Assembly: GCA_030765605.1 (NCBI GenBank)
Contig: JAVCCG010000085.1
Location: 1 to 64,000, forward strand
Source of the DNA: Candidatus Alcyoniella australis
GTDB taxonomy: Bacteria; Lernaellota; Lernaellaia; JAVCCG01; Alcyoniellaceae
Direction of reading: 5' to 3'
Length of the DNA: 64,000 bases
The notes under the pieces were generated by a model. That model was given only the letters and a program-made list of their open reading frames with translations. It had not been told where the DNA came from and did not search any database. Below, piece by piece: positions 720 through 52,767 of the stretch. Made by a program: the position numbers and the translations under genes. Each line of letters begins with the position of its first letter. Position 1 is the stretch's first letter.

Positions 720-1382
720 ATGGTTTTTAAATCGATAGTTCCGATAATCTGTTTAATTACTTTGTTATTTTTTTCCTTCTATGTAGTGGCCGACGATAGG
801 GGCGAACGTAAAGGTTTTACTCTGTTAGAGGAAGATTTTGAGAATGAGTTTCCGCCAGAGGGCTGGCGTCTGATTCAGACCAACCCTGACAGCACTTGGC
901 AGCAGGGCTCAGTCGAGTTCGATGGCAGTTGCCTGCCCCATGACGGTAATAAACTGGCTTACATAGAAGCTGAGGAAGATCAGGCGTATGACGAGCAGTT
1001 GATAACGCCATTGCTCACTTTGAGCAGCCAGATGGAAAGCGCGGATGAAAGATCATATACTGTCCATTTGTGGGCATACATAGATGATTATGACTACCAT
1101 GATGATCCGCTGAAAATTGATTATCGATGCAATACTGCTAATAGTCCCTGGAATCGCATTGAATTCATACCTGGCGACACATTAGATCCCAATGGATTAT
1201 CTCAAATTAATTTTTCAACAATTGATGAACCTTATGATTGTTATTATAACGGAATTTATTTTCGCTTTAGGTATGTAGGCGGGCATGATCATGGGGTATG
1301 CATTGATAGTATTAAGGTAGTCTATTCAGGCATTTTTTATTATGATGAATCGGACGACGACGATTCCGGCTGCTGCGGGTGA
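720..1382 (+). CDS. Secreted choice-of-anchor/MAM-like protein with Asp-Cys C-terminal tail
   Basis: The open frame starts at 561, but the first 53 codons are RAYT remnant. ATG at 720 has an AAGGA-type ribosome site and begins a classical signal peptide (MVFKSIVPIICLITLLFFSFYVVA). The mature part opens with LLEEDFENEFPPEGWRLIQ, the typical start of a jelly-roll choice-of-anchor J/MAM-like adhesion domain, and ends IDSIKVVYSG, the usual last strand. The last residues are ESDDDDSGCCG: an Asp tract followed directly by paired Cys, resembling the tail of the DUF4091 protein at 50728. Codon use is AT-rich compared with genes after 5.6 kb. Length is 220 aa. Binding partner unknown. Confidence 0.7.
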   Translation: MVFKSIVPIICLITLLFFSFYVVADDRGERKGFTLLEEDFENEFPPEGWRLIQTNPDSTWQQGSVEFDGSCLPHDGNKLAYIEAEEDQAYDEQLITPLLTLSSQMESADERSYTVHLWAYIDDYDYHDDPLKIDYRCNTANSPWNRIEFIPGDTLDPNGLSQINFSTIDEPYDCYYNGIYFRFRYVGGHDHGVCIDSIKVVYSGIFYYDESDDDDSGCCG

Positions 1383-1399
1383 AATTCGATGAGGCGTGC

Positions 1400-1457
1400 G
1401 GACACGATGCCTAATCAAATTGCCCTATCTACCGGCAAGCAATTAAGTATCGTGTCC
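1400..1457. repeat. REPIN-like palindrome of the RAYT repeat family
   Basis: GGACACGATGCCTAAT at 1400-1415 is answered by an inverted copy (AATTAAGTATCGTGTCC, 1441-1457), differing at two positions over 16. The 25-base centre itself contains TTGCC/GGCAA. The arms share the GGGACACxATACTTAACT core of the element at 499-692. Two inverted REP-like units about 60 bp long fit a REPIN. It sits 18 bp after the stop of the secreted protein gene. Confidence 0.6.
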
Positions 1458-1516
1458 CCGGAATTATCCCTTGGCGATACGGAGTAGGCTCGCATCCCGT
1501 TTAGCTTTACCCCCCA

Positions 1517-2158
1517 CTAGGTTCTCCCAATGCAAAACATTGATATCTGTTCCAGATAAATCGCTTTCTCAATTGGGCTTATAAAGCACAGAACCGTAAA
1601 TGCCAACATGAAGTAGAAAAGGTAACGCATGCATTTGATCATCCTGTCATCCTTTATTCCGCCTTCTTTCTTAAAGCCCAGTAGATAAACAAAGCGGACA
1701 GGTAGAAAATACAATAAAAAGTGTGGAATTAGACTCATGAGAATAGGCATTTCCCAATCTATTTTACCATAAAAAACTGATGTAATAGGATGAGATTCAT
1801 ATTCGACATCGGCCGCGATACCCTTTAAACGAATGCCGGACCAGAACAAAAATATCAACAAGGCAAGAATGCCGGTTGCGATATTGACTGAAATATTACC
1901 ATGCATGTCCTTTTCTATAGTATGATAAAGTATCCATATCAGTGCAATATTAATCCCAACGACCGCTGCTGATAAAAGCTTGTTGTGGGTATTCAAGATG
2001 TCGATGAAAAAATATAGACAAGCCGCACATGCCAATATCAACAAAAAAATGAAAAAATAAGTGGGAATATCGGATATAATGTCTATTATATCACGTTTTT
2101 GAGGATCCTGGTCTCCCACGAAGGACTGCCTCCAACCCCCATAATCGTTCTTCCCCAT
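1517..2158 (-). CDS. Multi-pass membrane protein of unknown function
   Basis: The 213-aa protein has a short charged N-terminus (MGKNDYGGWRQSFVGDQDPQKRD) followed by about five hydrophobic segments: around residues 32-52, 62-80, 93-107, 137-160 and 176-195. No motif that I recognise is present. Codon use is AT-rich like the rest of the first 5 kb. A TTGACA-N18-TATAGA promoter lies upstream on the same strand. It stands alone between a repeat and an IS element, which suggests accessory cargo. Function not assignable. Confidence 0.6.
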   Translation of the reverse strand: MGKNDYGGWRQSFVGDQDPQKRDIIDIISDIPTYFFIFLLILACAACLYFFIDILNTHNKLLSAAVVGINIALIWILYHTIEKDMHGNISVNIATGILALLIFLFWSGIRLKGIAADVEYESHPITSVFYGKIDWEMPILMSLIPHFLLYFLPVRFVYLLGFKKEGGIKDDRMIKCMRYLFYFMLAFTVLCFISPIEKAIYLEQISMFCIGRT

Positions 2159-2251
2159 ATCAACCGCTGAGACGGGGCGTTTCCACTACCCTTCGAAACG
2201 AAGCCCGCACCGATGCCCCTGCGCAAGCCCGATTCATATTTGTATGACTCA

Positions 2252-2281
2252 TCTATACAAGTACCCGATGTCCTCTGTCAA
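2252..2281 (-). promoter_or_regulatory. Sigma-70 promoter for the 1517-2158 membrane protein
   Basis: On the minus strand TTGACA (2281-2276) is followed after 18 bases by TATAGA (2257-2252), one mismatch from the -10 consensus. It lies about 95 bases upstream of the start codon at 2158. Confidence 0.5.
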
Positions 2282-2507
2282 GCAAAATCACTTGAAACGT
2301 ACAATCTGGTATCCCTGTTAACTAGGATTTGTCTCTCTCCGACACAATTCTGAGAACTCACGGGTTGCGCTTGGGACCCCGAGAGGAATTCCGCCGTTGG
2401 CGGAACCTTCGGCCCCCGATTTTGCTGCGAGCGGAATTAGCAGCCGACCTGATCGTTTGAACCGCCCCGACTTTCCCGGAGGCTTCAAGAATTGAGAGAA
2501 TGGAGTT

Positions 2508-3739
<1,232 letters not shown>

Positions 3740-3766
3740 CCGAGTCTCCGAAGAACCCGGGGCGAT

Positions 3767-4156
3767 TCAGTCTCCAAACTTCAAGCTCCAACATTTTTTG
3801 ATTTCTTCTTTGGTAAAATTTAGAGACTTTTTGCATTTTGGGCAATTAATCTCAAAATCAGACACACCATCTTTTGCCATTTTATCGGCGAGATCCAACA
3901 TCCAACCACCTTCAGGAAAGTAAACATATCCACATTGCTCACAAATGCCTAATTTTGTTAAATTATATTCTCCTGTTCTTTGGCATTGGTTTGTATTGGT
4001 GCACATATAAACTGTAACTGGTTTGGAGAGAGGAATATGCATCCCTGGTGCAATTTCTTTGGTTGGAGTTTTGAAGTTGGCGGTAGCTTGGAGTTTGCGG
4101 TGTTCCCCCACTACTTCTTCGCCACAGATTGTGCAATACGGTTTGTCGTCCATCAT
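3767..4156 (-). pseudogene. Zinc-ribbon protein gene truncated by the IS3 element
   Basis: From ATGATG at 4156/4153, behind a strong AAGGAG site, the frame encodes about 129 aa with several Cys pairs: CTIC, CTN..C, CEQC and CPKC. These suggest two zinc ribbons. The last sense codon is the base triplet next to the IS, and the stop TGA (3769-3767) is the first three bases of the IS right inverted repeat. The original C-terminus has therefore been replaced, and how much was lost is unknown. The frame is otherwise healthy and could still be expressed. Upstream ATG at 4192 lacks a ribosome site. Confidence 0.6.
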
Positions 4157-4294
4157 TAACTCCTTTTCTTTCTGTATCTGAGCCTGTTTCAAAACCTGAG
4201 CAAACCCGGCTTCTGGGTTAGCCCCGGTTGTCGGATTCCCGATGAATCCGACGATACTATTTTCACGCTCGCGAGATCAAGCTAATTTTGATCC

Positions 4295-4332
4295 CTGTCC
4301 CTCGCTAAAACTCGTCCGCCAATGAAATCAAC
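4295..4332. repeat. 38-bp dispersed repeat, copy 1
   Basis: Bases 4295-4332 match 56082-56119 at 33 of 38 positions without gaps (CTGTxCCTCGCTxAAACTC core). Both copies are intergenic. Neither gives an obvious frame, so the nature of the repeat is unknown. Confidence 0.5.
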
Positions 4333-4762
4333 GTCTTGCGAGCATGGCAAATTTGGCCTATCCTGTCAACATGAATGCTTGATTCGTTGTGCTGTTTTAG
4401 GTGTTGCTTTTCGACCGGCGATCACAAACATCCAAACGCCCGATCTATTTTTGGCGAACGACCGGCTAATGTTCGGACCGGGTCCCTGCCTTTTCGACGC
4501 CAGCATCTCTTGCTACTCCGAGTGTAACTGTCACGAAAAAAACAGCGCTTTCTAAAATGACCCGTATATTCAACAGCTTCTTTGCGATCGGACTTGATGG
4601 GCAAAGTCCGAACGACATGGAGAAAGAGAGAGAAAATGGGGTAAAATCGGGGCAAAATGTGCGTCTGGGGCAGCGAGCCAGTCCGATTGGAGCAGGCCGC
4701 CAGGCGCGGCGCGAGAGGTGGTAAATCCCTTTATATCAAGCGCTTATACGCCACAAACGACG
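4333..4762. other. Non-coding stretch, nothing recognised
   Basis: About 430 bases without a supported gene. Two overlapping 77-codon frames on opposite strands (4322-4555 and 4422-4655) have no ribosome site, no recognisable motif and implausible composition, so I do not call them. Confidence 0.5.
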
Positions 4763-4783
4763 GTAGCCCCAAGGTGGGGCTAC
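4763..4783 (-). terminator. Hairpin downstream of the tmRNA-like RNA
   Basis: GTAGCCCC (4763-4770) and GGGGCTAC (4776-4783) form a perfect 8-bp stem with a 5-base loop. It lies about 35 bases past the CCA end of the RNA read on the minus strand. Only a weak T tract follows, so terminator function is tentative. Confidence 0.35.
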
Positions 4784-4815
4784 AGAACAGAGAGACAGTC
4801 CTTTTTAGGGGATCG

Positions 4816-4876
4816 TGGTGGAGGCGGTCGGAGTCGAACCCCCGTCTGAATTGTGCCTTGTGTTTCAATGAACTGC
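4816..4876 (-). ncRNA. Short RNA resembling a tmRNA (ssrA) 3' end
   Basis: The minus strand ends GGGGGTTCGACTCCGACC then GCCTCCACCA. This closely resembles the conserved tmRNA 3' end (T-loop TTCGACT, acceptor strand, encoded CCA). The T-stem is imperfect here (GGGGG opposite CCGAC). No tmRNA 5' domain, tag reading frame or pseudoknots can be found upstream or downstream. A perfect sigma-70 promoter sits directly upstream, predicting an RNA of about 60 nt. Options are a displaced ssrA 3' end left by an integrated element, a decayed tmRNA, or a short tRNA-like RNA. Confidence 0.35.
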
Positions 4877-4881
4877 TCCAA

Positions 4882-4909
4882 ATTATAATTCATTACGCTG
4901 CTATGTCAA
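4882..4909 (-). promoter_or_regulatory. Perfect consensus sigma-70 promoter
   Basis: On the minus strand TTGACA (4909-4904), a 16-base spacer and TATAAT (4887-4882) match both consensus hexamers exactly. Initiation would fall near 4874-4877, just before the tmRNA-like sequence ending at 4816. It is the best sigma-70 promoter I found in the window. Confidence 0.7.
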
Positions 4910-4941
4910 GGAAAAATACGCAGTAGCTTGTGGGGATTAAG

Positions 4942-4980
4942 GGAGTTCCAGGGGGGTTCCAGGGACACGATACCTAACTA
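4942..4980. repeat. Solo end of the RAYT repeat family
   Basis: The sequence repeats the left-end structure seen at 487-524: a duplicated GTTCCAGGG unit followed by GACACGATACCTAACTA. No matching inverted partner is close by, so it is an isolated end or a relic. Confidence 0.5.
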
Positions 4981-5083
4981 ATTTTCAACTTCTTGTTTTT
5001 AATGGCTTATAAGATTACGTGCCTCTCACGCCTGATGATATTGGGGCCAACAAAGTCTAAAAGCATTTGACACACCTCCCCAT

Positions 5084-5511
5084 CCCCTGGTAAAATATAA
5101 AGGTGCTCATTGAAATCTAAATCACGAACGGCGATTGGAAAAAGAAGTGCGGGGGCGGCTAGTTGACATAATATTTTGCCAAATTTTCCATGCGATTATT
5201 TCGCATTAGAATCAGCACCTTACAGACCGGCGAAAACTCAACCTATGCGATCAACTAAGCCCTGTCGTACTTGCGCGAAATTACAGGAAAATCGCGGTTT
5301 TTTTCGAAAGATTATCGCATGCATGCGGTTTCAAGATTACCCTGATTAATCAGCAACTTGCGCGGCAGGGAAAAACAGTATATGAACATCGCATGGAGCC
5401 AAATCGCGATTACCAAGTAATTTCAACGACTATACGCGCTTCGTAACCTATACGAAATCTGTGATTTGAAATCCCAATTCGTATGCAAGTCCTAAAGTAT
5501 TTTACCAGGGG
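5084..5511. repeat. MITE-like segment bounded by a 14-bp perfect inverted repeat
   Basis: CCCCTGGTAAAATA at 5084-5097 recurs inverted at 5498-5511, enclosing 428 bp. The similarity weakly extends inward (AGG after a short AT stretch). The interior is AT-rich and has no credible gene; several short palindromes are present (for example around GCATGC at 5320). The layout suggests a non-autonomous transposable element, but there is no transposase and no clear target duplication. Confidence 0.4.
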
Positions 5512-5610
5512 TTAGATTCTAAGCGGTTGAATAATTAAGACAAAATCCGGCAAAACAGCGAAATCCAGCATATCAAGTAATACTTGACATTGTCGCGTAT
5601 ACTCATTGTT

Positions 5611-5653
5611 AGAAAAAGCAAATCCCCCACCGCCCTTTTTGGGCTTGTGGGGG
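5611..5653 (-). terminator. Rho-independent terminator of the GcvH-like operon
   Basis: On the minus strand CCCCCAC (5653-5647) pairs with GTGGGGG (5630-5624), with an inner GCCC/GGGC extension and an AAAAA loop, followed by GCTTTTTC. It lies 20 bases after the stop of the gene ending at 5675. Confidence 0.8.
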
Positions 5654-5674
5654 AGTATCTGAGCAAGAGGGAGG

Positions 5675-6394
5675 CTAGTTGGTGAGGAAGAACTCGCGAC
5701 AGATCTCGTCCCAATGCTCCGGGTCGAGCTGGCGTGCCATGCCGCTTTTAAGCAGTGCGCCGTCAGCAACCACAGTGCCCAGGGCCGCATCCGAGCGCGC
5801 GGCCAGCACGCCCACCGCGGTCTCGGTCCAGACTTTGGCCAGCTTATCCTGGATCAGATTCTTCAGGTTTTGCGCGATGTTGGCCGACTTTACCCGCAGC
5901 AGCCAACCCTTGTTGTAGGGGTCGCTGTTGATGGTCTCGGGGTGTTCCAGCGCATTGCGGTTGACCTCAACCACCTCGCCGTCAACCGGCGAAAGCATCT
6001 CGATCCGCCTGCCGTCGGCCTGCAGCGACCATCCGTTGGCGCCCTGATGCAAATCCTGTCCAATATCGGGCAGTTGCACGCCATCGATCTTGCCCAACAG
6101 GCTTTGTGCAAAGTCGTCCAGGCCCAGGCTTACCGTCTGGTCGTCCTCCACCCTGGCCCAGGTATGGCCCTGGTGAAAGTAGATATCCTCTGGAACTACA
6201 ATACCTTGCACCTGATGGGCCTCGGTGGCCTCAAGCGGAGTACGCGCCTCGGCCGCTGCCTGTCGGACCGGCTGCGGGCTGTGCATCAGCACGTAGAACA
6301 GTAGGAACAGCGCCATGAATCCAAAGGCCAGCGCATACTCGAAGTACTTGGTATATAAGACGTAATCTACGAAGGTGTGGAAGGAGTCCATCAT
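5675..6394 (-). CDS. Membrane-anchored GcvH-like (lipoyl-domain-like) protein
   Basis: The 239-aa protein has one N-terminal membrane segment (about residues 20-38), an Ala/Glu-rich linker and a domain with the GcvH pattern: FHQGHTWARVEDDQTVSLGLDDFAQSLLG, then LSPVDGEVVEVNRNAL and NSDPYNKGWLLRVK. In true GcvH the lysine carrying lipoate lies about 12 residues before P-V-S/D-G. Here the segment is SLQADGRRIEMLSPVDG and that position is Gly. It therefore cannot be lipoylated at the normal site. A C-terminal extension of about 60 aa follows. It is the last gene of a three-gene set with a 41-aa membrane peptide and a second GcvH-like paralogue. Role unknown. Confidence 0.75.
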   Translation of the reverse strand: MMDSFHTFVDYVLYTKYFEYALAFGFMALFLLFYVLMHSPQPVRQAAAEARTPLEATEAHQVQGIVVPEDIYFHQGHTWARVEDDQTVSLGLDDFAQSLLGKIDGVQLPDIGQDLHQGANGWSLQADGRRIEMLSPVDGEVVEVNRNALEHPETINSDPYNKGWLLRVKSANIAQNLKNLIQDKLAKVWTETAVGVLAARSDAALGTVVADGALLKSGMARQLDPEHWDEICREFFLTN

Positions 6395-6436
6395 CTATCT
6401 CCTTGCTGCCGTCTCGAGTCTCATGGCCCTGAATCC

Positions 6437-6562
6437 CTAGGCCGAGACGCGCTGTGCGCCCGGAACCGCGGGCTGCTGGGCCTTGTGGTGCCTGACCATC
6501 GCCAGTACGCCGTCGACTGAGATCGCGATCGCGAATGCCGCTGCCACGCCGATGACTACCAT
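6437..6562 (-). CDS. 41-aa membrane peptide between two GcvH-like genes
   Basis: ATG at 6562 follows a strong GGAGGT site at good spacing. The peptide has a hydrophobic stretch (VVIGVAAAFAIAISVDGVLA) and a basic, Ala/Gln/Pro-rich tail. It lies 9 bases after the stop of the upstream GcvH-like gene and 42 bases before the next start, in the same operon. The codons are GC-rich like the neighbours. I recognise no family. It may be a small subunit or partner of the GcvH-like membrane proteins; that is inference from position. Confidence 0.6.
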   Translation of the reverse strand: MVVIGVAAAFAIAISVDGVLAMVRHHKAQQPAVPGAQRVSA

Positions 6563-6571
6563 GGTAACCTC

Positions 6572-7249
6572 CTAATTTCCTTTGGAGTTTTTCTTTTCGC
6601 GGTTGTAGAACATCTGGCTGGCCAGCTGCTCCCACTGCTCTTTGTCGAGCGTCAGGGCCGCGCCCTCGACCAGCTCGCCGCCGTCGCCGTAAACCATGCC
6701 AAGGTCCGGAAACGCATCGCGGAAAAAGCGGTTGCGCTGGAATTCCGTCCACTTGGCGAATCGGGAGCTGCTGTAGAGGTCGTGCAGTTCACTATTAAGA
6801 GCCGTGGGCAGGATCTTCATGATCCAGGTCTCGCCGCCATCCGGATCGACCAGCAAGTGCGGATTCTTCAGCGCGCGCTTGTTAACCTCGATAATCCGGC
6901 CACTTATCGGCGCAGGCTGCGAAAGCTTGCGGTCGCCGAACTTGATCGTCCACAGCTTGGAGCCGCGTTTGATCTTGGCGCCAGGCGACGGAACGTCGAT
7001 CTGCTCGATATCGCCAATGAATCGCTTGGCAAAGTCGTCCAGACCAACGGCAACGGCCGCGCGCTGGACCTCGACCCAGGTGTGACCCTCGTGGTACAGA
7101 CGATCCTGCTGCTGCTCCAACTCTGGAGCCGCCTGCTCGGTGTTTGCTTTTACGATTACGTTTGCCTTTTTTTCTGCTAACCTCCGCACAACCAGCGCGT
7201 CGATCAAAATGAATGCTGCCAACGTGAGAATTACTAGGATTGGAACCAT
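6572..7249 (-). CDS. Second membrane-anchored GcvH-like protein
   Basis: The 225-aa protein starts with a membrane segment (MVPILVILTLAAFILIDALV), a charged linker and a GcvH-type domain: YHEGHTWVEVQRAAVAVGLDDFAKRFIG, VPSPGAKIKRG, PAPISGRIIEVNKRAL and the Trp-Ile-Met-Lys-Ile strand. Aligned on PxSG, the lipoyl-lysine position is Asp (FGDRKLSQPAPISG), so the usual lipoylation site is missing, as in its partner at 5675. The ribosome site AAGGGAGG precedes ATG at 7249. It is probably the first gene of the operon. Two degenerate paralogues side by side suggest a structural or binding role rather than carriage of a lipoyl intermediate. Confidence 0.75.
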   Translation of the reverse strand: MVPILVILTLAAFILIDALVVRRLAEKKANVIVKANTEQAAPELEQQQDRLYHEGHTWVEVQRAAVAVGLDDFAKRFIGDIEQIDVPSPGAKIKRGSKLWTIKFGDRKLSQPAPISGRIIEVNKRALKNPHLLVDPDGGETWIMKILPTALNSELHDLYSSSRFAKWTEFQRNRFFRDAFPDLGMVYGDGGELVEGAALTLDKEQWEQLASQMFYNREKKNSKGN

Positions 7250-7641
7250 TTTTGCCTCCCTTATTGCCTGTTCCGCACCTAATTAATCCAAGAATCGCGC
7301 CAACCAATGTTATTTGAGATATTAATTTGGATTAAATTTTATTATCCTCTCAATTCAATGACTAACAGAGTTGACAGATCATCACTTTCAATACTTCCTA
7401 TAGCTATGATCGATCGCTGAAATTGGAAAAATTCAACGGCGATTTTGCTGCAATTCGCCGTTTCGCCATAACCTGCTGTTATTAGCGATTAATTTTTGGT
7501 GATGAAATTGTCAACGGCGGTTGTTGCGATAGTCAACGCCTGGAATTAACCTCAGGGTCGCTTTTATCGTGTTTAATATGTCGTCGATGTCACTGTTGTG
7601 AAATTAATCAAAGGCCTGCAATACGCCTAATCTTAAATAGC
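7250..7641. other. AT-rich intergenic region with an inverted repeat
   Basis: No gene is supported in these 392 bases, which lie upstream of the GcvH-like operon and downstream of the ABC-F gene. An 8-bp inverted repeat, AACGGCGA (7435-7442) and TCGCCGTT (7455-7462), could be an operator or hairpin, and a related CAACGGCGG recurs near 7512. I saw no convincing promoter hexamers on the minus strand. Confidence 0.4.
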
Positions 7642-9648: not shown

Positions 9649-9816
9649 GGCCGCAGTTTGTACCGTAAATCGCGCTCGATGTCAGCAATGCCCAACCCAT
9701 ATCGGATTACACTGTGTAAGGCAGCTGACAATCTGTAAGGATTAAAAAACTAAAGTTGCGGGCGTCCTTTGAGATATCGATTTGATTTTATTGATAAATT
9801 ACCCGGCCCACTCCTT

Positions 9817-9832
9817 CGGCACGAGAATTGCT
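9817..9832 (+). promoter_or_regulatory. Sigma-54 (-24/-12) promoter upstream of a 28-aa peptide
   Basis: CGGCACGAGAATTGCT agrees with the sigma-54 consensus TGGCACG-N4-TTGCW at every position but the first, with GG and GC at the required 12-base distance. Transcription would start near 9844, about 70 bases before the small ORF at 9914. An NtrC-type activator is encoded at 30439-31848. Confidence 0.65.
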
Positions 9833-9913
9833 TATTAGTTAGATTAGGGTATGCGTGAAACCCTACGGTTCATAAAGGTTTTAGGTATTAACGATCAGAC
9901 TTGGGGGGCTGTT

Positions 9914-10000
9914 ATGATCACAAAAGCGATATTCTTCACTGGAGTAATGGGATCAGGGACGATCCTGCTATTCGTTGTCGTCTCGTTTTTCGTGGCTTGA
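9914..10000 (+). CDS. 28-aa single-span membrane peptide
   Basis: ATG at 9914 follows a G-rich ribosome site (GGGGGG, 7 bases upstream). The peptide MITKAIFFTGVMGSGTILLF ends VVVSFFVA, almost wholly hydrophobic. It is far below usual calling limits. Its support comes from the ribosome site, the clean membrane-span composition and a near-perfect sigma-54 promoter 80 bases upstream, in an intergenic space that otherwise holds nothing. No family is recognised. It would sit in the inner membrane and may be a stress or envelope peptide (inference). Confidence 0.5.
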   Translation: MITKAIFFTGVMGSGTILLFVVVSFFVA

Positions 10001-10006
10001 CGCTTC

Positions 10007-12755: not shown

Positions 12756-12836
12756 CGCGCCCTGATTAACAGATGCGCATCGGCCGCGCAAGACACGGAC
12801 TTCCGTATCGGGCCGCGCCGTGCAATCATCCCCTCG

Positions 12837-28474: not shown

Positions 28475-29404
28475 CTAGTAGCAGCCCTCGTCCGGCTCGG
28501 TATAAGGATAGCCCCAGGCCTCGAATTCGATGATCTCGTACTCGTTGTACAGTGGGAACGCCGAGTCCGAGTGCTGGAGCAAAATCGCCACCCACCAACC
28601 GCCGAAGGGCGTTGGCAGGTCGAATTCCTCGGTCCCGCCCTGACCGTTGGTCTCCACGTAGACCGTCACCCAGTCGTCCTCGACCGGCTCGGTGGCCGCA
28701 TAGCGGTCGGGGTTGACGCGAATCTCGTACTCGTCGGCAAAGGCCCGCTCGTCGCTGTTCCAGACGATCTTCAGCTGTTCGATCTGGATGTAATCGTCGA
28801 GGTAGACCTTGAGCCACTGCGGATTGAGGTGGTTCTCCGAGGAATCCCAGCGGGTCCCCGCATCGCCGTCCACGGCCTTGTCCGGCGAGTTCTGCGGACT
28901 CCCCGAGGACGTGGAGCTGGACGTGGCCGCCTTCTCAAAGGCCTGGTTGGTCGGATCGTCGTTTTCGATCTGCTCGATCTGCGCGATCGTCGGATCGGAA
29001 ACGTTCTCAGCCGCGTCAGTGGCCGTAACCGCCAGGGTATTGGTGCTCAGCGGATCGAGGTAAACCGTCACGCACCACGAGCCGTCGACCTCGACCACCG
29101 TGTTGGCGTCGGCCAGTCCGCCGGTGATCTCGACCCGTGAGCCGGCCTCGGCCAAACCGGTGATGGTCTGCAACCCCAGATGCGTCGGACTGAGCACCGG
29201 ATCGACCAGCGGCGGATCGGGCGGCGTTGTATCGGGCGGCTGTTCGTCGTCGTCGTCGTCAACATCGTCGTCAAGGTCGTCGTCATCGTCGTCGGAGTCG
29301 GTGTCCGTCGAATCGCGACAGGCAACGCTGAAGGCCAAAAGCATCGCGAGCAGCGCTACCAGCAGCCACAACGACACCATGGAGAAACGTATCTGATTTT
29401 TCAT
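28475..29404 (-). CDS. Asp-tract lipoprotein with Ig-like and discoidin-like domains (paralogue A)
   Basis: ATG at 29404 has a GGGGTG site; 309 aa. The signal ends at a Cys (AFSVAC) and is followed at once by a long Asp run with a Pro-rich spacer (PPDTTPPDPPLVDPVLSPT). Then comes a bacterial Ig-like module (ITGLAEAGSRVEITGG, VTVYLDPLSTNTLAVTATDAAENVSDP) and an F5/8 type C/discoidin-like domain (KAVDGDAGTRWDSS, LKVYLDDYIQIEQLKIVW, WWVAILL). The pair with paralogue B, 2 bases apart, arose by tandem duplication. A surface carbohydrate-binding role is plausible. It ends in a Cys (DEGCY). Confidence 0.75.
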   Translation of the reverse strand: MKNQIRFSMVSLWLLVALLAMLLAFSVACRDSTDTDSDDDDDDLDDDVDDDDDEQPPDTTPPDPPLVDPVLSPTHLGLQTITGLAEAGSRVEITGGLADANTVVEVDGSWCVTVYLDPLSTNTLAVTATDAAENVSDPTIAQIEQIENDDPTNQAFEKAATSSSTSSGSPQNSPDKAVDGDAGTRWDSSENHLNPQWLKVYLDDYIQIEQLKIVWNSDERAFADEYEIRVNPDRYAATEPVEDDWVTVYVETNGQGGTEEFDLPTPFGGWWVAILLQHSDSAFPLYNEYEIIEFEAWGYPYTEPDEGCY

Positions 29405-29406
29405 GT

Positions 29407-30360
29407 TCAACACCCCGGATCGACCGGCCAGTCCTCTGCGGACACGCCGTAGATCTCAAATTCTGCAATTGCGTAACGCGCGCGACCGGTCAGCTCGTTG
29501 ATGTCGCTCCCCTCGAACAGCACTATCGCCACCCAGCGCGCGGTGAACGGTTCGTCGAAATCGATGTATTGCGTACCGCCGGTTCCCATCTGCTCGACGT
29601 GCGCCACGTACCAGTTGGGCTCCTCCAGCGCGCCATCCTCGTGGGGGTCCGGCGGGCTGGGCAGGTCGCTGTAGTAGACCACGTAGTCCGTGGCGAACAT
29701 CGAGGCCTGCCAGACGATCACCGCCCGCTTTACGATCACCGTATCGAGTCGCTTGACCCCGTACCACTGGAGACGCCGGGCCTCCTCGTGAAACGTGTTG
29801 GTGCTGTTGTGCCACCAGGTGGCCGTACTGCCGTCGATCCCCTTGTCGGCCGTGCACTCGGGGCACTCGGTTCCGCTGGTGCTCCCTGCAAAGGCCAACC
29901 CCTCGAGCGACAGGTTCTGCTCCTCGGGACCGGAGTTCGGGTCTTGCACGATGGAGACCAGGGCCGGGTCGCTGATGTTGCCCTCCCTGTCCGTGGCCGT
30001 AATTTCCAGATCGTTGGACGTCGCCTGGTTGAGGCTGACCGTCACGCACCATTCGCCGCCGATGTTGTCCGCGGTTGCGCTCGCCGATTGGGCCCCTCCG
30101 CGCACGTTGATCGCGGCGTCGACTTCGGCCGTGCCGCTGATGCTCTGGACCAGCAGCGGCGTGGGGCTGATCACCGGATCGACGTCGGGCGGATCAGGAG
30201 GTTCAGGCTGATCGTCGTCGTCGTCCGTAGAATCGTCGTCGTCCTCGGCGTTATAGGGGGTCTTATTGTCTCCGGTGCAGCACACGGCCAAAGCCAGGAC
30301 AGCGGCCAGCAGTAGTATTAACAACAGCTTAGCCGACAGATAACTTCGCCTTGGCAACAT
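29407..30360 (-). CDS. Asp-tract lipoprotein with Ig-like and discoidin-like domains (paralogue B)
   Basis: The 317-aa protein has a signal ending LAVCC, then an Asp-tract linker (NAEDDDDSTDDDDDQPEPPDPP without the last two in some splits) leading to VDPVISPTPLLVQSISGTAEVDA. The same Ig-like and discoidin-like order as paralogue A follows (KGIDGSTATWWHNS, RLDTVIVKRAVIVW, RWVAIVLFEG). It also ends in Cys (VDPGC). Sequence between the two copies has diverged greatly apart from domain landmarks, so the duplication is old. Confidence 0.75.
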   Translation of the reverse strand: MLPRRSYLSAKLLLILLLAAVLALAVCCTGDNKTPYNAEDDDDSTDDDDDQPEPPDPPDVDPVISPTPLLVQSISGTAEVDAAINVRGGAQSASATADNIGGEWCVTVSLNQATSNDLEITATDREGNISDPALVSIVQDPNSGPEEQNLSLEGLAFAGSTSGTECPECTADKGIDGSTATWWHNSTNTFHEEARRLQWYGVKRLDTVIVKRAVIVWQASMFATDYVVYYSDLPSPPDPHEDGALEEPNWYVAHVEQMGTGGTQYIDFDEPFTARWVAIVLFEGSDINELTGRARYAIAEFEIYGVSAEDWPVDPGC

Positions 30361-40899: not shown

Positions 40900-40903
40900 G
40901 GCA

Positions 40904-40923
40904 AAGATCGTAAAAACGATCTT
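40904..40923 (+). terminator. Hairpin after the receiver-DUF4388 gene
   Basis: AAGATCGT (40904-40911) and ACGATCTT (40916-40923) pair perfectly over 8 bp with an AAAA loop, 5 bases after the stop. There is no T run, so it may act with the second hairpin CCCGGCT/AGCCGGG at 40989-41005. Confidence 0.5.
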
Positions 40924-40930
40924 CGGCTCC

Positions 40931-41005
40931 TTTGAGGTGCTGCCGCGGGGTGGCCCGTGGCATTACTACCATCGAATTGCGCGATGCCCCCGGCTCAAAG
41001 CCGGG
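40931..41005. repeat. Dispersed intergenic repeat, second locus
   Basis: Bases 40939-40984 match 28407-28452 at 37 of 46 positions. The copy ends in the hairpin CCCGGCT-CAA-AGCCGGG (40989-41005). It fills the convergent space between the DUF4388 gene and the lipoprotein gene ending at 41010. Confidence 0.55.
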
Positions 41006-41009
41006 CGTG

Positions 41010-42020: not shown

Positions 42021-42126
42021 CATTCACCTCCCAATTTCAGTAACCGCTTGTATCAGTCAGACGGTGGTGGGAATTGAAAGGTTAAACGCCGGGCGGGGTC
42101 GGTGAGGATGAATAGATAGATGCGGA

Positions 42127-43101: not shown

Positions 43102-43205
43102 CAGGCCGTGGGTCAGCAGGCCGCCTGTAAAAAGCGCCTGCGGCTAATCGCGGCCCGGGGCCGGAAAATGCGAAAGCTACGCGTCATTTCCCCCGCCGGG
43201 GACGG

Positions 43206-45635: not shown

Positions 45636-45749
45636 CGGCTGCTCCAAGCAGGAGACGGAAGGATAACAATTTCAGATGATATCATGCCGACCCAATCCGA
45701 ACCAATGTGAGGTAAATCGGATAATTCTCGCCAATAGCCAGGTTGTGGT

Positions 45750-45778
45750 TTGATCGTGCGACCGGCGGTTGTTACACT
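45750..45778 (+). promoter_or_regulatory. Putative sigma-70 promoter of the 45801 operon
   Basis: TTGATC (45750-45755), 17 bases, TACACT (45773-45778). Initiation near 45785 would leave a short leader containing the AGGAGG site before GTG 45801. An ATG at 45750 overlaps the -35 and is therefore not the start. Confidence 0.45.
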
Positions 45779-45800
45779 TACCGGTTGCAGGAGGAATCAG

Positions 45801-47456
45801 GTGAAAAGACTTACTCTGCTGATACTTACGTTTATCGCGCTGCTGGGCCTGCTGGTGTGCTCCAGCGCCCTGGCCGCGGAGCGCACGCGTACCGGCATGC
45901 TCTCGATCAACCTCAAGGGCCAGGTCATCGGCGCGGAGCGTTATGAGATCTACTACCATGAAAACGGCAATGTCAGGGCCAACGGCACCATCGGCCTCAA
46001 ACAGGAAAACAGCAGCACCGAGCTGTTGACCGACCTGCGACTCAAGGGCCCGGACGAGACGTTCGAGGGATACCAACTTGAGGCCGACATCAACAAGGTG
46101 CCCAACAGCCTGTCGATCACCCTCGAAAACGACAAGGCGCGGGCGCAGGTGATCTCGGTAATGGGACAGCACGACAAGCTGTTGGAGATCGACCCGCATA
46201 CGCTGATCGTCGAGAATAGTGTGTTCCACCTCTACCAGCTCGTGGCCGACCGCTACAACTTCCGCATCGGTGGTAGGCAAGAAATCAACGTTATTCTCGG
46301 CACGAGCCTGACGTACCATCATACCTGGATCGAGTTTCGCGGGCGGACGCCGATCGCCGTGGGCGAAAAGACCTACTACGGCAAACGGCTCTATCTCGAC
46401 CTGGAGAATTTCGGCGTCCATATCTGGATCGACGACGATGGCGAGCTGCTCAAGGTCGAAATCCCGATCCAGGGCCTAAGCGCCACGCGCACCGACTACA
46501 CCGGCCTCGAGGTCGACATCGCTCCCGCACCTAAATATCGGCCGAGCGCCGATCTGATCTATCGCAACGTCAGTTTCAAATCGGGTGATTATCAGCTTGC
46601 GGGCACGATCAGCCTGCCCGCCCTGGCTGTACGGCCGCTGCCGGGCCTGGTGTTTATCAACGACAGCGGTCCGCAGACGCGCAACGGGATCGTGCCCAAG
46701 ATCGGGCTCTACATCGGCACCGGCGAGCTACTGGATGAGTTGAGCAAGTTCGGATTCGTGGTGCTGCGCTACGACGAGCCGGGGGTCGGCCAAAGCCAGG
46801 GGGCCTTCCCCCTGTCGAGCCTGATCACCACCGAGGCCGACGTCAACGCGGCGCTACAGATGCTTGCCGGTCGGCCGGAGGTCGATCCGCAACGGCTGGC
46901 GGTGATCGGACAGGGCGAGGGAGCGATGATCGCAATGCGAATCGCGGCGCGCAATCCGGCCATCAAGGCCTGCGCCCTACTCGCACCCAGCGCCATGCCG
47001 CTGAACGAACTCGCCGTGTGGCAGGTGCAGCGTAGGCTGTCGCAGCAAGGTGCGCAGCCCGACGAGTGGAAGAACGATCCGGTGGTCACAACTTTCGACG
47101 AGGCGCGCGACAGCGACGAACGCTGGACCGTGGTCGCAATGAAACCGGTGGACCTCAACGTATTCCGCGAGCTGATCAATACCGCGCCCCAGCAGCAGGT
47201 CACCAAAATCCGTGTGCCGATGTTCATCGCCGCAGCCGGCCGCGACGCCCAAATGCCGCCCGGGCAGGGGCAAACGCTGGCCACGGCCGCGCGCAACGGC
47301 GGCAACGCTTCGGTACGCTACAAACTGTTCGCCGAGCTCGACCACTTCTTCCGCCGCGGCACCGGCAGTATCTCCGACTACTCCGACGAGACGCGATCAA
47401 TCGATCGCGAGTTCCTCGATGCCCTTGGCGACTGGCTGCGCGAGGCGCTCAAATAG
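45801..47456 (+). CDS. Secreted alpha/beta hydrolase-fold protein lacking the nucleophile Ser
   Basis: GTG at 45801 follows AGGAGG at 6-base spacing; 551 aa. A signal peptide (LTLLILTFIALLGLLVCSSALAA) leads to a beta-rich N-terminal domain (about 30-245) and a C-terminal hydrolase fold: GLVFINDSGPQTRNG, VLRYDEPGVGQSQG, then RLAVIGQGEGAMIAMRIAA. Relatives have G-H-S-E-G at this elbow; here position 372 is Gly (G-Q-G-E-G), so no Ser nucleophile. An Asp (AAGRDAQMPPG) and a His (AELDHFFRRG) remain. It is probably inactive as an esterase or uses another chemistry. Its stop shares a base with the transglycosylase start. Confidence 0.78.
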   Translation: MKRLTLLILTFIALLGLLVCSSALAAERTRTGMLSINLKGQVIGAERYEIYYHENGNVRANGTIGLKQENSSTELLTDLRLKGPDETFEGYQLEADINKVPNSLSITLENDKARAQVISVMGQHDKLLEIDPHTLIVENSVFHLYQLVADRYNFRIGGRQEINVILGTSLTYHHTWIEFRGRTPIAVGEKTYYGKRLYLDLENFGVHIWIDDDGELLKVEIPIQGLSATRTDYTGLEVDIAPAPKYRPSADLIYRNVSFKSGDYQLAGTISLPALAVRPLPGLVFINDSGPQTRNGIVPKIGLYIGTGELLDELSKFGFVVLRYDEPGVGQSQGAFPLSSLITTEADVNAALQMLAGRPEVDPQRLAVIGQGEGAMIAMRIAARNPAIKACALLAPSAMPLNELAVWQVQRRLSQQGAQPDEWKNDPVVTTFDEARDSDERWTVVAMKPVDLNVFRELINTAPQQQVTKIRVPMFIAAAGRDAQMPPGQGQTLATAARNGGNASVRYKLFAELDHFFRRGTGSISDYSDETRSIDREFLDALGDWLREALK

Positions 47457-48058
47457 TGCTCACAGCGCTGCTGCTGGCCGCAACGCTCGCGGTTACCGAC
47501 GCCGCCCCGCCCCTGGTTGCAGCGGTTGACCAGACGGCGGTGTTGCACCCGACCGCAGACGCATTGGACGACGGAGACGCGCTGGCCCAGATGCTCTCCG
47601 GCAAGACCGAGCCCGATGAGGTTCGAACCGTCGCGCCCCATCGCGGCCGGTATTACAAGCCAGAGCAGATCGAGCTGATCATTACGCGGGTGGCGATCGA
47701 CGAGCAGATCAATCCCTACCTGGCTTTGGCGTTAATCGAAACCGAATCGAGCCTCAATCCATACGCCGCAAGTCCGGCGGGCGCGCTGGGCCTGACCCAG
47801 ATGCTACCGGCCACGGCGCGCCGCTTCGGCGTGGAAAACATCTGGGACCCCGAGCAGAACGTGCGCGGCGGCCTGCGCTACCTCAAGTTCCTGCTCGGAA
47901 TTTTCGACGGCGACCTGCGGCTGGCGCTGGCGGCCTACAACGCGGGCATCCCAGCAGTGCTTTACTACGGCGACGTGCCGCCCTACAGCGAGACGCGCAG
48001 CTTTGTGGCGCGAATCTTCCGCCGCTTCAGCGAGCGGATGTTCCAAGGACGAAATTAG
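47456..48058 (+). CDS. Lytic transglycosylase (SLT domain), small secreted form
   Basis: GTG at 47456 overlaps the previous stop by one base (TAGTG). The 200-aa protein has a signal-like start (MLTALLLAATLAVTDAAPP) and a compact SLT domain: INPYLALALIETESSLNPYAASPAGALGLTQMLPATARRFG with the catalytic Glu, then NVRGGLRYLKFLLGIFDGDLRLALAAYNAG. It would cleave peptidoglycan glycan strands non-hydrolytically. The open frame to 47066 upstream is a shadow of the hydrolase gene. Confidence 0.88.
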   Translation: MLTALLLAATLAVTDAAPPLVAAVDQTAVLHPTADALDDGDALAQMLSGKTEPDEVRTVAPHRGRYYKPEQIELIITRVAIDEQINPYLALALIETESSLNPYAASPAGALGLTQMLPATARRFGVENIWDPEQNVRGGLRYLKFLLGIFDGDLRLALAAYNAGIPAVLYYGDVPPYSETRSFVARIFRRFSERMFQGRN

Positions 48059-48125
48059 CCCGGCTTTCGCATGCGGGCGCTTGAGGTTAAAATGTCGCTC
48101 CTGCCAAAACCTCTCGAGGTTAAAA

Positions 48126-49397
48126 ATGCCTAATAGACTACTGACCACGATCTTGCTGACGATCGTCGTATGCTGCGCCGGACTGACCGTCGGCTGCGTG
48201 TACGACGATGATCAGGCCGCTCCTTCGGACCTGGCCCCGGGCCCGGAGGCCGACTCGGCCCGCGCCGTTGATCGGCCGTTCGTGCCGCTGGCCGACGAGC
48301 CGCCGCCGGTGGCCGAGCTGATCGCGCAGGGCAAGGCCGCACTGAACGAGCGCGACGCCCAGACCGCACACGAGAAGTTCCTGCGGGCGATCGTGTTCGA
48401 CGCGGACAATTCCGACGCGGCCTGCGGTCTGGTGCTCGCCGACGGAATCATCGTGCTCGACGCGCTGGTGGCTCTGCCCGGCCAGTTAGAGGATCCGGCG
48501 ATGCCCGGGAAGTCAGGCGGCATTGGCGAAAACCTGCAGCGGGTCGTCCAGACCTCGCTGCTGCCGCCGCTGTACGAAATGCTGGCGATGATCAAGATCA
48601 CCCAGAACGATCCGCACTTCAGCTTCTGGCTGGAGCACTACCCGCTGATCATCGACGGCGACACCTGGCTGTTCGACCTGGGCAAGGAATGGGACGCCGC
48701 GGACATGATCGCCGCTCGCGGCTATACCTACATGTTGCTCGGGCTGAGCGACACGCTGCTCAGCCTTGAGGCCGACTTCAACTGGCACACGGTATTCAAC
48801 TGGGACTACGGCTTCGGCGGCGACATCGACCAGATGATCATCAACATCTGCGATTTGCTGATCGTGCTGCTGACCGACGAGGACTACCCGAACTTCCTCC
48901 GGCTTAACCAGGAGGGCGCTACGCTGCTGCCCAAGGCCGGAATCGAATGGGGCCGCGGACTGCGCGACCTGGGACTGTGCCTCGACCTGGCCCGCGCTGA
49001 AAGCGATTTCCAGGGCGACGACGTGTTCGGCTATATCGATGAAAACGGCAACCACGCCTGGGACGTTGACGAGCGGATGCACGTGCCGTACTTCGGCGAT
49101 CTCACCGACGCCGGCACCGTAACGCTCTCCTTGTTCCAATATTACAGCCAGGGCATCGGCGCGAGTTTCCTCGACGGCACGGACGAGGATATCGACCCGG
49201 ACAACCCCAACCTGTGGAACCTCAACGAGCTGGACATGCTCTCGTTCCACCTGGGGCTGGGGCTGCCGCTGTTTGACTTGGAGATCGACTTCGGCCAGTT
49301 CTTCCGCGACGCCCAACCCGACGGACTGCACACTACGCTGCTGCTGCTCGCCGACTTAATCAAGGAAGCCCTCGAGGCCGACGGAGGTGTCCGATGA
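48126..49397 (+). CDS. Lipoprotein with helical, TPR-like domain
   Basis: ATG at 48126 gives 423 aa with lipobox LTVGC (Cys24) followed by acidic YDDDQ. A tetratricopeptide-like segment (VAELIAQGKAALNERDAQTAHEKFLRAIVFDADNSDAACGLVLAD) and a long helical region follow, with a late EF-hand-like string (FGYIDENGNHAWDVDERM). No known family recognised, but the layout resembles TRAP-type or chaperone-like lipoproteins. It leads an operon of four overlapping genes for secreted proteins; its stop overlaps the next start (ATGA). Confidence 0.65.
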   Translation: MPNRLLTTILLTIVVCCAGLTVGCVYDDDQAAPSDLAPGPEADSARAVDRPFVPLADEPPPVAELIAQGKAALNERDAQTAHEKFLRAIVFDADNSDAACGLVLADGIIVLDALVALPGQLEDPAMPGKSGGIGENLQRVVQTSLLPPLYEMLAMIKITQNDPHFSFWLEHYPLIIDGDTWLFDLGKEWDAADMIAARGYTYMLLGLSDTLLSLEADFNWHTVFNWDYGFGGDIDQMIINICDLLIVLLTDEDYPNFLRLNQEGATLLPKAGIEWGRGLRDLGLCLDLARAESDFQGDDVFGYIDENGNHAWDVDERMHVPYFGDLTDAGTVTLSLFQYYSQGIGASFLDGTDEDIDPDNPNLWNLNELDMLSFHLGLGLPLFDLEIDFGQFFRDAQPDGLHTTLLLLADLIKEALEADGGVR

Positions 49398-50731
49398 ACC
49401 GCTCGCGACTGCTCAATCTTTGCTGGCCGGCCTTGGCGCTGATCCTGATCTGCGGCCTGCTGTCCTTCGCCGCCTGCCAGGAGGATGAAGACAAGCCCGA
49501 CGTGTGGCACGACGACGACAGCGGCGACGACGATGACGACGACGACGCCTGGACGCCGCCGACCTGCGAGCTGGCCCAGGTGCCGGCTCTGCCGCTGCCC
49601 GAGCGCGCCTCTCCCAACGTAATCACCTTTGACGAGACCGGCCGGATGTCGATCAACGGCCAGCCGTTCTTCCCTTGGGGCTTCTACGGGGTGGACCACG
49701 AGGACGGCAGTATGGACGAGCTGGCCGCCATCGGCTTTAACAACGCCGAGACCTCGTCGGGCTGCTGCCAGGGCGAGCAACTGCAAGAGCACATCGACTA
49801 CATCAACGCCGCGCAGGACGCCGGGCTGTTCGCCTGGGTCAAGGCGCTCAAGCCGACCAGCCAACTCGACAGCGTGCCGCGCGCCACTCTTGAGGACTAC
49901 ATCACCCAGCGCTCCGAGCTGCCGGGGCTGATGGGCTGGTACACATTCGACGAGCCGGGACTGCACGGCGTGGACGTCGCGCTGGCGCAAGAGCTCAACG
50001 ACCTGTTTAACGAGGTGGCACCGACCATCCCGACGACGCTGGTAATGATGGCCTCGGTGCCCTATGAGACCTACATCGATTACTGCAACGTGTTCATGGT
50101 CGACCCCTACCCCGTACCGTTCATGCCCATCGGTTTGGTGACCACCCAAATCCAGGGCGCGCTCGAGGCGGCCCAGGGGCGCGGCGCCAACGGCGGAGTC
50201 AAGCCGGTGTGGGGCGTGTTGCAGGCCTTTGACTGGCAGCTTTTATGGGGCACCAAGCCCGTGGGCGAGCCCTGGCGGCCCACCCCCGACGAGCTGCGCA
50301 ACATGGCCTACCAGGCCGTGGCAGCAGGCGCCCAGGGCGTCGTCTATTGGAATTACAGCCACCTGCGCGCGTCCGAGAGCTGGGAGGGTTTCCAAGTTCT
50401 GGCCCGTCAGATCACCTCGCTCAACGCGATCTGGGTCAGCGACACATTGGATAGCTCGGCGCTGATGCCCGGCGATCAGTCGACCAGCACGGTGGTGACG
50501 CGGCTGTTCCAGTTCGACGGCCGCCATTATTTGCTGGCGGTCAACAACGGACTGACCTCCACCAGCGCGACCTTCGACATCTCGAGCCTGGGCGACAATC
50601 CGTGCGCCATTGACTACTTCGACGAGCAGGTGCGCCTGGTCAGCCGCGAGGGCACGTTCACCGAGATCTTCGAGAACCTCGGCGTGCGGTTGTTCCAGAT
50701 AACCGACGAGGCCAAGGGAGGATGCCGATGA
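49394..50731 (+). CDS. Asp-tract lipoprotein with TIM-barrel glycosidase-like domain
   Basis: The 445-aa protein has lipobox SFAAC (Cys28) followed immediately by an Asp tract (QEDEDKPDVWHDDDSGDDDD and more). Then comes a barrel-like domain: INGQPFFPWGFYGVDHEDGSMDELAAIGFN, GLFAWVKALKP, PGLMGWYTFDEPGLHG with Asp-Glu in a strand end, VVYWNYSHLRASESW, and a beta C-terminal domain (YLLAVNNGLTSTSATFDIS). The order resembles glycoside hydrolases of the GH5/GH42/DUF4434 kind. The Glu in TFDEPG may be catalytic (inference). Confidence 0.68.
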   Translation: MNRSRLLNLCWPALALILICGLLSFAACQEDEDKPDVWHDDDSGDDDDDDDAWTPPTCELAQVPALPLPERASPNVITFDETGRMSINGQPFFPWGFYGVDHEDGSMDELAAIGFNNAETSSGCCQGEQLQEHIDYINAAQDAGLFAWVKALKPTSQLDSVPRATLEDYITQRSELPGLMGWYTFDEPGLHGVDVALAQELNDLFNEVAPTIPTTLVMMASVPYETYIDYCNVFMVDPYPVPFMPIGLVTTQIQGALEAAQGRGANGGVKPVWGVLQAFDWQLLWGTKPVGEPWRPTPDELRNMAYQAVAAGAQGVVYWNYSHLRASESWEGFQVLARQITSLNAIWVSDTLDSSALMPGDQSTSTVVTRLFQFDGRHYLLAVNNGLTSTSATFDISSLGDNPCAIDYFDEQVRLVSREGTFTEIFENLGVRLFQITDEAKGGCR

Positions 50732-52767
50732 GAACTCTGCCGACTGTGGTGTTGATCGCGTTGGTCGTGCTCGCACTGGCCCTGCCGGCCCAGGCCGCGC
50801 TCAAGGCGTTGGTCGTCGATCCCAACCTCAAGCTGCGGCCCGGCGATGATCCGACCGGCGCTGCCGGTGCGGTGCTGCAGGCCGCTCGCAACGAGTACGA
50901 GCCGTTCCAGGTAGTGGTGTTCGACGATTCCGGCGCCGCACTCAGCGGATGCGACGCCTCGGTCTCGGCGCTGGCAGGCCCCGAGGGCGAGCAAATCGCC
51001 GCCAACGAGATCACGCTGTTCCGCGAGTGGTACATCGAGGTGATCATCCCCAGCCAAAAGCCGATCGACCCCGCGGCCTCGGGCTTTTGGCCCGACGGCC
51101 TGATCCCGTTCGTAGACGAGTGGGACGGCGAGGACCGCGACGGGTCGCCGTTCAACGTGGAGGCAGGCGGCTTCGTGATGTTGTGGGTCGATGTACACAT
51201 CCCGTTGGGCCAGCAGCCGGGCGATTATGCCGGCTCGCTGTCCGTGACCTGCGATGACAAGGCAGCCGTGCAGATCCCGATCGAGCTTACGGTCTGGGAC
51301 TTCACCGTACCCGAGAAGATCACCGGCGCCTCGAACTACGGCTACAGTTGCGGCAACTCCTACAACACCCACGTGCGCATGGGGTCAAGCCCAAACCGCG
51401 ATACACTCAACGACCGCTATTTTGCCGAGGCGCTTAAGCACCGGATGGGAATCAGCTCGCCGTGCTACTCCCCGACGTGGAGCTGGGACGGTTCGAGCGG
51501 CAGCTTTGACTGGACCACCTTCGACGCCCAGATGGGACCGTTCTACGACGGCGAGGTTCTACCCTGGGCCGTGGAGCTGCCCAACATGCGCCTGCCCTAC
51601 GGCGGCTCGTCCACTGACGAGCGCCGCGCCTATTGGGCGGCGTTCGCCCAGCACTTCCGCGAAAAGGGCTGGCTGGACAAGCTCTATCTCTACCTGCCCG
51701 ACGAGCCGACTCCGGCCGAATATCAAAACCTGGTGAACATCGCCGAACTGCTGCACAGCGCCGATTCCGAGCTGCGCGCCATGGCCACCGAGCAGGTCGA
51801 TCCAGCGCTGATGGGCTCGGTCGACATCTGGTGCCCGGACGAGCCGCTGTTCTCCGACAGCCTGCCCTGGGGTCCCTACCCCGAGGACTATCCTCCGCGA
51901 CAGGCCCTGGGCGAAGAGGCCTGGATGTACAACTGCATGAGCGCACAGTTTATGGTCGACTACACCAACTACTTCATTGACTCCCAAGGGCTGCACGCGC
52001 GGCTGTTCCAGTGGGTGACCTGGCGCTACCACTTCACCGGCACGCTTTACTGGCAGAGCAACTACGGCATGCGCTCGGGCCACGACGTGTGGTACGAGCC
52101 CTGGGAAGACACCTGGTTCTGCAACGGCGACGGCAACCTGTTCTATCCCGGAGCGCCCTCAATGATCGGCGGCAGCAGCGATATCCCGATCGCCTCGATG
52201 CGCATGAAGCTGATCCGCGAGGGACAGGAGGACTACGAGTACTTCCGCCTGGCCGACGCCATGGGCAAGTCCGAGCAGGTCGACACCCTGCTGCGCAGCG
52301 TGGTTCGCAAGAGCTGGGACTGGTCGCACGATCCGGCGGACACGATGCGCGTGCGCGAGCAGATCGCCCAAATCATCCTCGGCCAGGGCGATTCCACGCC
52401 CCCGGACGAGCCCGGCGCGCTCGCCCTCGAGGCCGGGGACGCGACGATCAGCGTCAGTTGGACCGACCCTGCCGACGCTGACCTGGCCTCCTGCGCGGTC
52501 TACATCGGCAAGTACCCCGACGACCGCCAGTGGCTGGTCGACGTGGCCGCGGGCACGGGCCAGTACATCATCGAGGACCTGGCCAACGGCCAGACCTATT
52601 ACATCGCGCTGGACGCGGCCGACCAGTGGGGCAACCGCAGCGCTTTCACCGACGAAATCGCGGCCACGCCCCAGGGCGCGGACGATGACGACGATGATGA
52701 CGACGACGATACGGGCGCGGACGACGACGACAACGAGGAGCCGACCTGGAACGGTTGCGGCTGCTGA
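50728..52767 (+). CDS. DUF4091 glycosidase-like protein with Fn3 and Asp-Cys tail
   Basis: Two ATGs (50722, 50728) follow GGGAGG; the second has better spacing. The 679-aa protein has a signal peptide without lipobox (TVVLIALVVLALALPAQA), a long barrel-type domain and near the end IREGQEDYEYFRLADAMGK, the diagnostic motif of DUF4091. A fibronectin III module follows (PPDEPGALALEAGDATISVSW, YYIALDAADQWGNRS), then an Asp tract and the terminal TWNGCGC. The tail recalls the one at 1350-1379 and may be a sorting or anchoring signal. Overlaps neighbours on both sides. Confidence 0.78.
   Translation: MRTLPTVVLIALVVLALALPAQAALKALVVDPNLKLRPGDDPTGAAGAVLQAARNEYEPFQVVVFDDSGAALSGCDASVSALAGPEGEQIAANEITLFREWYIEVIIPSQKPIDPAASGFWPDGLIPFVDEWDGEDRDGSPFNVEAGGFVMLWVDVHIPLGQQPGDYAGSLSVTCDDKAAVQIPIELTVWDFTVPEKITGASNYGYSCGNSYNTHVRMGSSPNRDTLNDRYFAEALKHRMGISSPCYSPTWSWDGSSGSFDWTTFDAQMGPFYDGEVLPWAVELPNMRLPYGGSSTDERRAYWAAFAQHFREKGWLDKLYLYLPDEPTPAEYQNLVNIAELLHSADSELRAMATEQVDPALMGSVDIWCPDEPLFSDSLPWGPYPEDYPPRQALGEEAWMYNCMSAQFMVDYTNYFIDSQGLHARLFQWVTWRYHFTGTLYWQSNYGMRSGHDVWYEPWEDTWFCNGDGNLFYPGAPSMIGGSSDIPIASMRMKLIREGQEDYEYFRLADAMGKSEQVDTLLRSVVRKSWDWSHDPADTMRVREQIAQIILGQGDSTPPDEPGALALEAGDATISVSWTDPADADLASCAVYIGKYPDDRQWLVDVAAGTGQYIIEDLANGQTYYIALDAADQWGNRSAFTDEIAATPQGADDDDDDDDDDTGADDDDNEEPTWNGCGC

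Follow-up and report, generated by a model that had tools for sequence, protein, structure and literature searches.

Here we describe a short C-terminal tail, an acidic tract closed by a cysteine motif, which the sequences support as a genome- and phylum-wide tag on the exported proteins of Candidatus Alcyoniella australis and its relatives. We consider it probable, with a fair margin for doubt, that the tail is the phylum's C-terminal surface-anchoring signal, a variant of MYXO-CTERM that lacks the membrane span and whose Cys would be lipidated, perhaps by Lgt. The tail was noticed on two proteins encoded in a 64,000-nucleotide stretch of one contig, referred to below as the window, and was then followed through the whole genome and through six further genomes of the phylum.

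The tail in the window and in its genome

The two window proteins end as the original prediction had described (Table 1). The choice-of-anchor protein, whose open reading frame spans 561-1382 (+), closes with an Asp tract and SGCCG (DESDDDDSGCCG before the stop), and the DUF4091 protein closes with DDDDDDDDDDTGADDDDNEEPTWNGCGC, in which a ten-Asp run is followed by TGADDDDNEEPTWNGCGC and the chain ends in NGCGC. Their translations also confirmed that neither protein has a lipobox; both carry type I signal peptides. For the choice-of-anchor J gene the start is more likely at 720, where an ATG opens a frame with a clean signal peptide. Residues 557-651 of the DUF4091 protein resemble part of a MYXO-CTERM-anchored family (NF045522, a match below its cut-off), and the TIGR03901 family HMM has no match in either tailed window protein. 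Additionally, the window holds a mirror-image pair: the gene of a predicted lipoprotein overlaps the tailed DUF4091 gene at its start, and an Asp tract stands after the lipobox Cys of the one product and before the terminal Cys of the other. In two more predicted lipoproteins of the window, at 28475-29413 (-) and 29407-30360 (-), the lipobox Cys is likewise soon followed by an acidic stretch. By eye, positions 2508-3739, which lie some 1.1 kb downstream of the gene for the choice-of-anchor protein, resemble an IS3-type transposase pair.

Table 1. Locations of the genes and tails discussed in the text; the first five rows refer to the window
Feature	Location	Strand	Basis
Choice-of-anchor J protein with type I signal peptide, tail DESDDDDSGCCG	720..1382	+	translation; NF038128 match 33.1 bits, cut-off 30
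Tail of choice-of-anchor J protein: acidic tract, Ser-Gly, Cys-Cys-Gly, stop	1341..1382	+	
Predicted lipoprotein, lipobox Cys then Asp tract, LSFAAC|QEDEDKPDVWHDDDSGDDDDDDD	49394..50731	+	simple-rule signal-peptide call
DUF4091/GH123-like protein, type I signal peptide, tail ending NGCGC	50722..52767	+	translation, profile matches
Tail of DUF4091 protein: ten-Asp run, second Asp run, NGCGC, stop	52672..52767	+	
TPR protein beside myxosortase gene	L250 11478-12902; L251 8439-9587; L252 9018-10154		
Tails extended past the Cys motif	L032 1520-3109; L272 6623-9796; L292 5637-6830; L313 829-2652		

The genome from which the window derives (G000; 4.29 Mb in 157 contigs, 98% complete) was scanned whole. 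The strict pattern D4-x(0-10)-CCG-stop gave 22 in-frame ends and no control matches; with the looser D3-x-C-[CG]-[CG]-stop the in-frame ends rose to 36 and the control matches to 4. Confinement to the two window proteins, which the original prediction had named as the observation that would speak against it, is therefore not what this genome holds. Among 38 extracted tailed proteins, the type I signal peptide is clear in 31, none of them with a lipobox; the remaining seven comprise one with a plausible signal peptide, three that run off contig ends and three short or broken frames. Their cargo is diverse and includes subtilases, papain-like proteases, M14 carboxypeptidases, a C25 gingipain-like protease, metallophosphatases, GDPD and GH43 proteins, and Kelch and FG-GAP propellers. 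The gingipain-like C25 protease (L049, 12270-14600), with the tail SCGG, is weakly similar to PorU, the sortase of the T9SS.

A 1.73 Mb sample of the same genome was analysed gene by gene (1343 genes by our own simple gene model, in stretches partly picked for tails, with signal peptides and lipoproteins called by our own simple rules and not by a trained predictor). In this sample the tail is nearly restricted to exported proteins, and 37 of the 38 exported proteins having a C-terminal Asp run carry a Cys within the last six residues.

Form and spread of the tail

The typical tail consists of an acidic tract, usually a Gly or Ser-Gly, and then a Cys at -3, as CCG or CGC. The first Cys occupies -3 in 79 of 97 tails from the phylum. 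In a stricter set of 92 tails, the residue before the Cys is Gly in 63 and Ser or Ala in 18, and the endings are CGC (39) and CCG (28), with the rest made up of CGG, CGN, CGS, CG, CS and CF, and of longer ones of which CGCGL is an example. Two Cys are present in most tails; the several single-Cys forms (CGG, CGN, CGS, CG, CS and CF) indicate that in several cases one is enough. Some tails run on past the Cys motif by a residue or two, frequently a Leu (ECCGL, CGCGL, CCGRL, GCGAL); these may be what is left of helix-bearing ends that have decayed, or else form a class of their own.

The phylum sample comprised seven genomes (G000 to G006), among them the MAG fen_1099 (G004), recognised by its myxosortase, to which L131 is identical; FEN-1099 is the group for which the name Ca. 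Lernaellota has been proposed (PMC13248872). The window is assigned to it through the phylum grouping of the genomes and this agreement of names. The tail is present in all seven genomes. G004 seemed tail-less by an Asp-based pattern, and its tails proved to carry Ser/Gly before the Cys. Matches to [DNSG]-GCGC-stop number 27, 23, 30, 37, 35 and 22 in G001 to G006 and only 2 in G000, where the main form is CCG (the 22 in-frame ends above), an ending that is rare in the other six. A switch between CCG and GCGC across dozens of unrelated genes suggests a single trans-acting reader of the tails. Outside the phylum, 283 genomes of about 215 other families gave control-level matches only, as did 35 myxosortase-bearing genomes, mostly of Myxococcota; the matches that were read, including the GCGC-stop matches in the latter set, were out of frame or in spurious frames, and a wider occurrence of the tail was set aside.

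The behaviour of the tail within one orthologous family is illustrated by an MXAN_6640-like metalloprotease present in all seven genomes. Its linker is rewritten between genomes, and six copies end in CCG, SCGC, ACGC, GCGC, GCGC and GCGA, while the copy in G003 is split, with its end out of frame. A Myxococcota counterpart bearing MYXO-CTERM was sought, and the search gave no orthologue and one spurious match.

Relation to MYXO-CTERM, lipoproteins and Lgt

The original prediction had compared the tail with MYXO-CTERM, minus the membrane span and Arg cluster, and the comparison gained substance from the phylum itself. TIGR03901 scored over its cut-off in 7/7 phylum genomes and in 0/14 control genomes, and most of the phylum matches have the order acidic tract, GC(GC), helix and basic end (e.g. 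DDDDDDDDGCGCVIGGG...SLRKKR). The full MYXO-CTERM proteins share the Asp tract and GCGC with the tail-only proteins of the same genomes, which are about 6- to 36-fold more numerous than the one to six matches over cut-off per genome. A myxosortase-family CPBP protease was found in six of the seven genomes and not in G001; Mrt_core was over its cut-off in L116, L123 and L114, and just under it in L119 of G000 (98.8 vs 100). Like MYXO-CTERM, with its TIGR03901 model and its myxosortases MrtX, MrtC and MrtP, the tail thus places a GCGC-type Cys signature past a linker on Sec-exported, surface-type proteins, dozens of them per genome, in a phylum that has the cognate myxosortase family. Unlike MYXO-CTERM, its chain ends one to three residues past the Cys, as CCG or CGC, with no transmembrane helix and no Arg-rich end, so that nothing is left for a protease to remove; the CCG form is moreover not typical of MYXO-CTERM. 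Since helix, Arg cluster and HMM match, three defining features, are all lacking, we have not filed the tail as a member of that family. The acidic tract and GCGC common to both forms make the tail the MYXO-CTERM signature stopping where the helix would begin; it plausibly works like MYXO-CTERM, and we infer that it arose by loss of the helix. LPXTG, PEP-CTERM, GlyGly-CTERM and JDVT-CTERM are also C-terminal tags common to unrelated exported proteins in one genome, but they combine a motif with a membrane span and a basic end, whereas the tail is the motif alone.

Small Cys-rich signal-peptide proteins (139-202 aa) with full MYXO-CTERM ends form tandem clusters at L256 4010-5395 and L257 8923-10913. 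The gene of a conserved TPR protein adjoins the myxosortase gene in G000, G002 and G003 (Table 1). The myxosortase neighbourhoods have only this protein and an HD-GYP regulator (two genomes) in common, and were set aside as a guide to the modifying enzyme. The CPBP protein of the window (62483-63361) was likewise rejected as a processing enzyme, being closest to ABC_perm_CPBP (below cut-off) and outside the myxosortase group.

The acidic spacer recurs in the genome's predicted lipoproteins, there at the N-terminal end. In the 1.73 Mb sample, and by the simple rules given above, 34 of 102 predicted lipoproteins have an Asp run right after the lipobox Cys, against 27 of 517 other exported proteins (p = 7e-14); one of them begins with Cys followed by DSGDDDDD, the reverse of the tail DDDDDSG-C. 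The spacers of tails and lipoproteins are similar in composition by offset from the Cys, and a lipobox and a tail hardly ever occur together (at most one doubtful overlap among the 102). Asp spacers thus accompany an anchor Cys at either end of the chain. In Bacteroidota, acidic residues adjoining the lipid-bearing Cys direct surface export (PMC5080379). Acidic residues beside an anchor Cys are what the tail has in common with that signal and with lipoproteins made by the lipobox route (Lgt/LspA). The likeness to the lipobox is partial: small residues stand at -1 and -2 in both, and the hydrophobic -3 of the lipobox is Asp or Ser in the tail. Tailed proteins differ from lipoproteins in that their Cys is C-terminal and they have type I signal peptides without an N-terminal lipobox. 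The Rab proteins of eukaryotes are cytosolic, and their prenylated tails carry Cys among the last residues as CXC or CCX; the tail resembles them in the end-placed Cys only, the proteins here being exported.

In M. xanthus, myxosortase cleavage needs the invariant Cys, and for the acyltransferase that acts on MYXO-CTERM Lgt is so far only the leading candidate of the authors (PMC11980579). Three Lgt-family genes, some in pieces, are found in each of the seven phylum genomes (L330-L349), and they form three clades seen across the phylum; G000 has no clade C member, and its extra copy, L342, is of canonical type and sits on a long branch. The alignments that were read keep the Arg residues equivalent to E. 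coli R143 and R239; they have Tyr in place of H103 in the HGGL motif, which has been proposed to bind peptide, and GCC(Y/H/F)G as their signature. The three paralogs are candidate tail-modifying enzymes, to be taken as a lead only; extra Lgt copies may be common in other phyla, which would weigh against such a role. A processing enzyme of matching spread, which the original prediction had proposed to look for, has thus turned up only in part: the myxosortase is there in six of the seven genomes, but the tails have no membrane span for it to cut, and the three Lgt paralogs match the spread of the tail within the phylum.

Readings of the tail and their meaning

Because the tail resembles the myxobacterial anchoring tag minus its membrane part, the Cys itself is probably the point of attachment to the cell surface, and a lipid on this Cys is most likely. 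By their sequences, tailed proteins leave the cytoplasm via Sec with type I signal peptides, and their chains end in an acidic low-complexity spacer followed by Gly/Ser-Gly-Cys-X-X-COOH. The Cys at -3 would then receive a lipid, perhaps from one of the three conserved Lgt-type diacylglyceryl transferases, which would tie the C-terminus to a membrane and in the end hold the protein at the outer surface; type II secretion, for which G000 encodes the secretin GspD, may provide the way there. The tail would in effect be a ready-cut MYXO-CTERM, such that the few proteins with GCGC, helix and Arg cluster would need myxosortase and the many tail-only proteins would not. Counted against this lipid-anchor reading are the difficulty of a soluble tail without a membrane span reaching an Lgt-like enzyme, the partial lipobox likeness and the failure to find a myxosortase in G001. 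A direct form of C-terminal lipoprotein, in which a dedicated Lgt paralog lipidates the Cys at -3 with no membrane-span intermediate and no protease, the signal being acidic spacer-G-C-X-X-COOH, is possible, and we regard it as tentative.

Attachment might also be made by the thiol without any lipid. The Cys would then be joined to a partner at the surface through a disulfide or thioester, or would link the proteins into covalent dimers, and the acidic tract would serve as a spacer. The Cys is indeed the one near-constant residue and most tails have two, but this would leave unexplained both the Asp-GCGC common to MYXO-CTERM forms and the mirror-image lipoproteins with their mutual exclusion of lipobox and tail, and we judge it unlikely. 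Somewhat less likely again is a soluble secretion tag, recognised by the type II system or some other exporter, with the proteins released and not anchored; the absence of a membrane span, a cargo largely of hydrolases and the T2SS secretin GspD in G000 fit such a tag, whereas a Cys motif common to an anchoring tag and a spacer common to lipoproteins favour anchoring, and a short linear tail is, to our knowledge, not the usual form of a T2SS signal.

The other readings have much less in their favour. Two Cys together with Asp in many tails could bind metal or form a redox site, but with several single-Cys forms and an orthologue ending in GCGA we find this very improbable. Equally improbable is neutral, functionless low-complexity sequence spread by recombination: Asp repeats expand easily and some tails are alike at the DNA level, but tails are written with varied synonymous codons and all three stops, the Cys position is kept across genera, and the carriers are almost exclusively exported. 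That ribosomes read through the stop, or shift frame, and so append a hidden membrane span is scarcely credible, even with TGA as the commonest stop (59/92), given that the frames downstream of 91 tails contain no helix followed by an Arg cluster; the hydrophobic stretches found there read mainly as signal peptides belonging to the next genes or as frames open by chance, and this route was rejected.

Most tags of this phylum have nothing beyond the Cys signature, a natural separation of modification from cleavage. If the tailed proteins are anchored, the Cys signature would be sufficient and cleavage would not be needed, and the modifying enzyme would be expected within the small set of membrane transferases that the phylum conserves. 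The tail also provides a compact C-terminal tag for testing and offers a route to predicting the surface proteome of an uncultured phylum.
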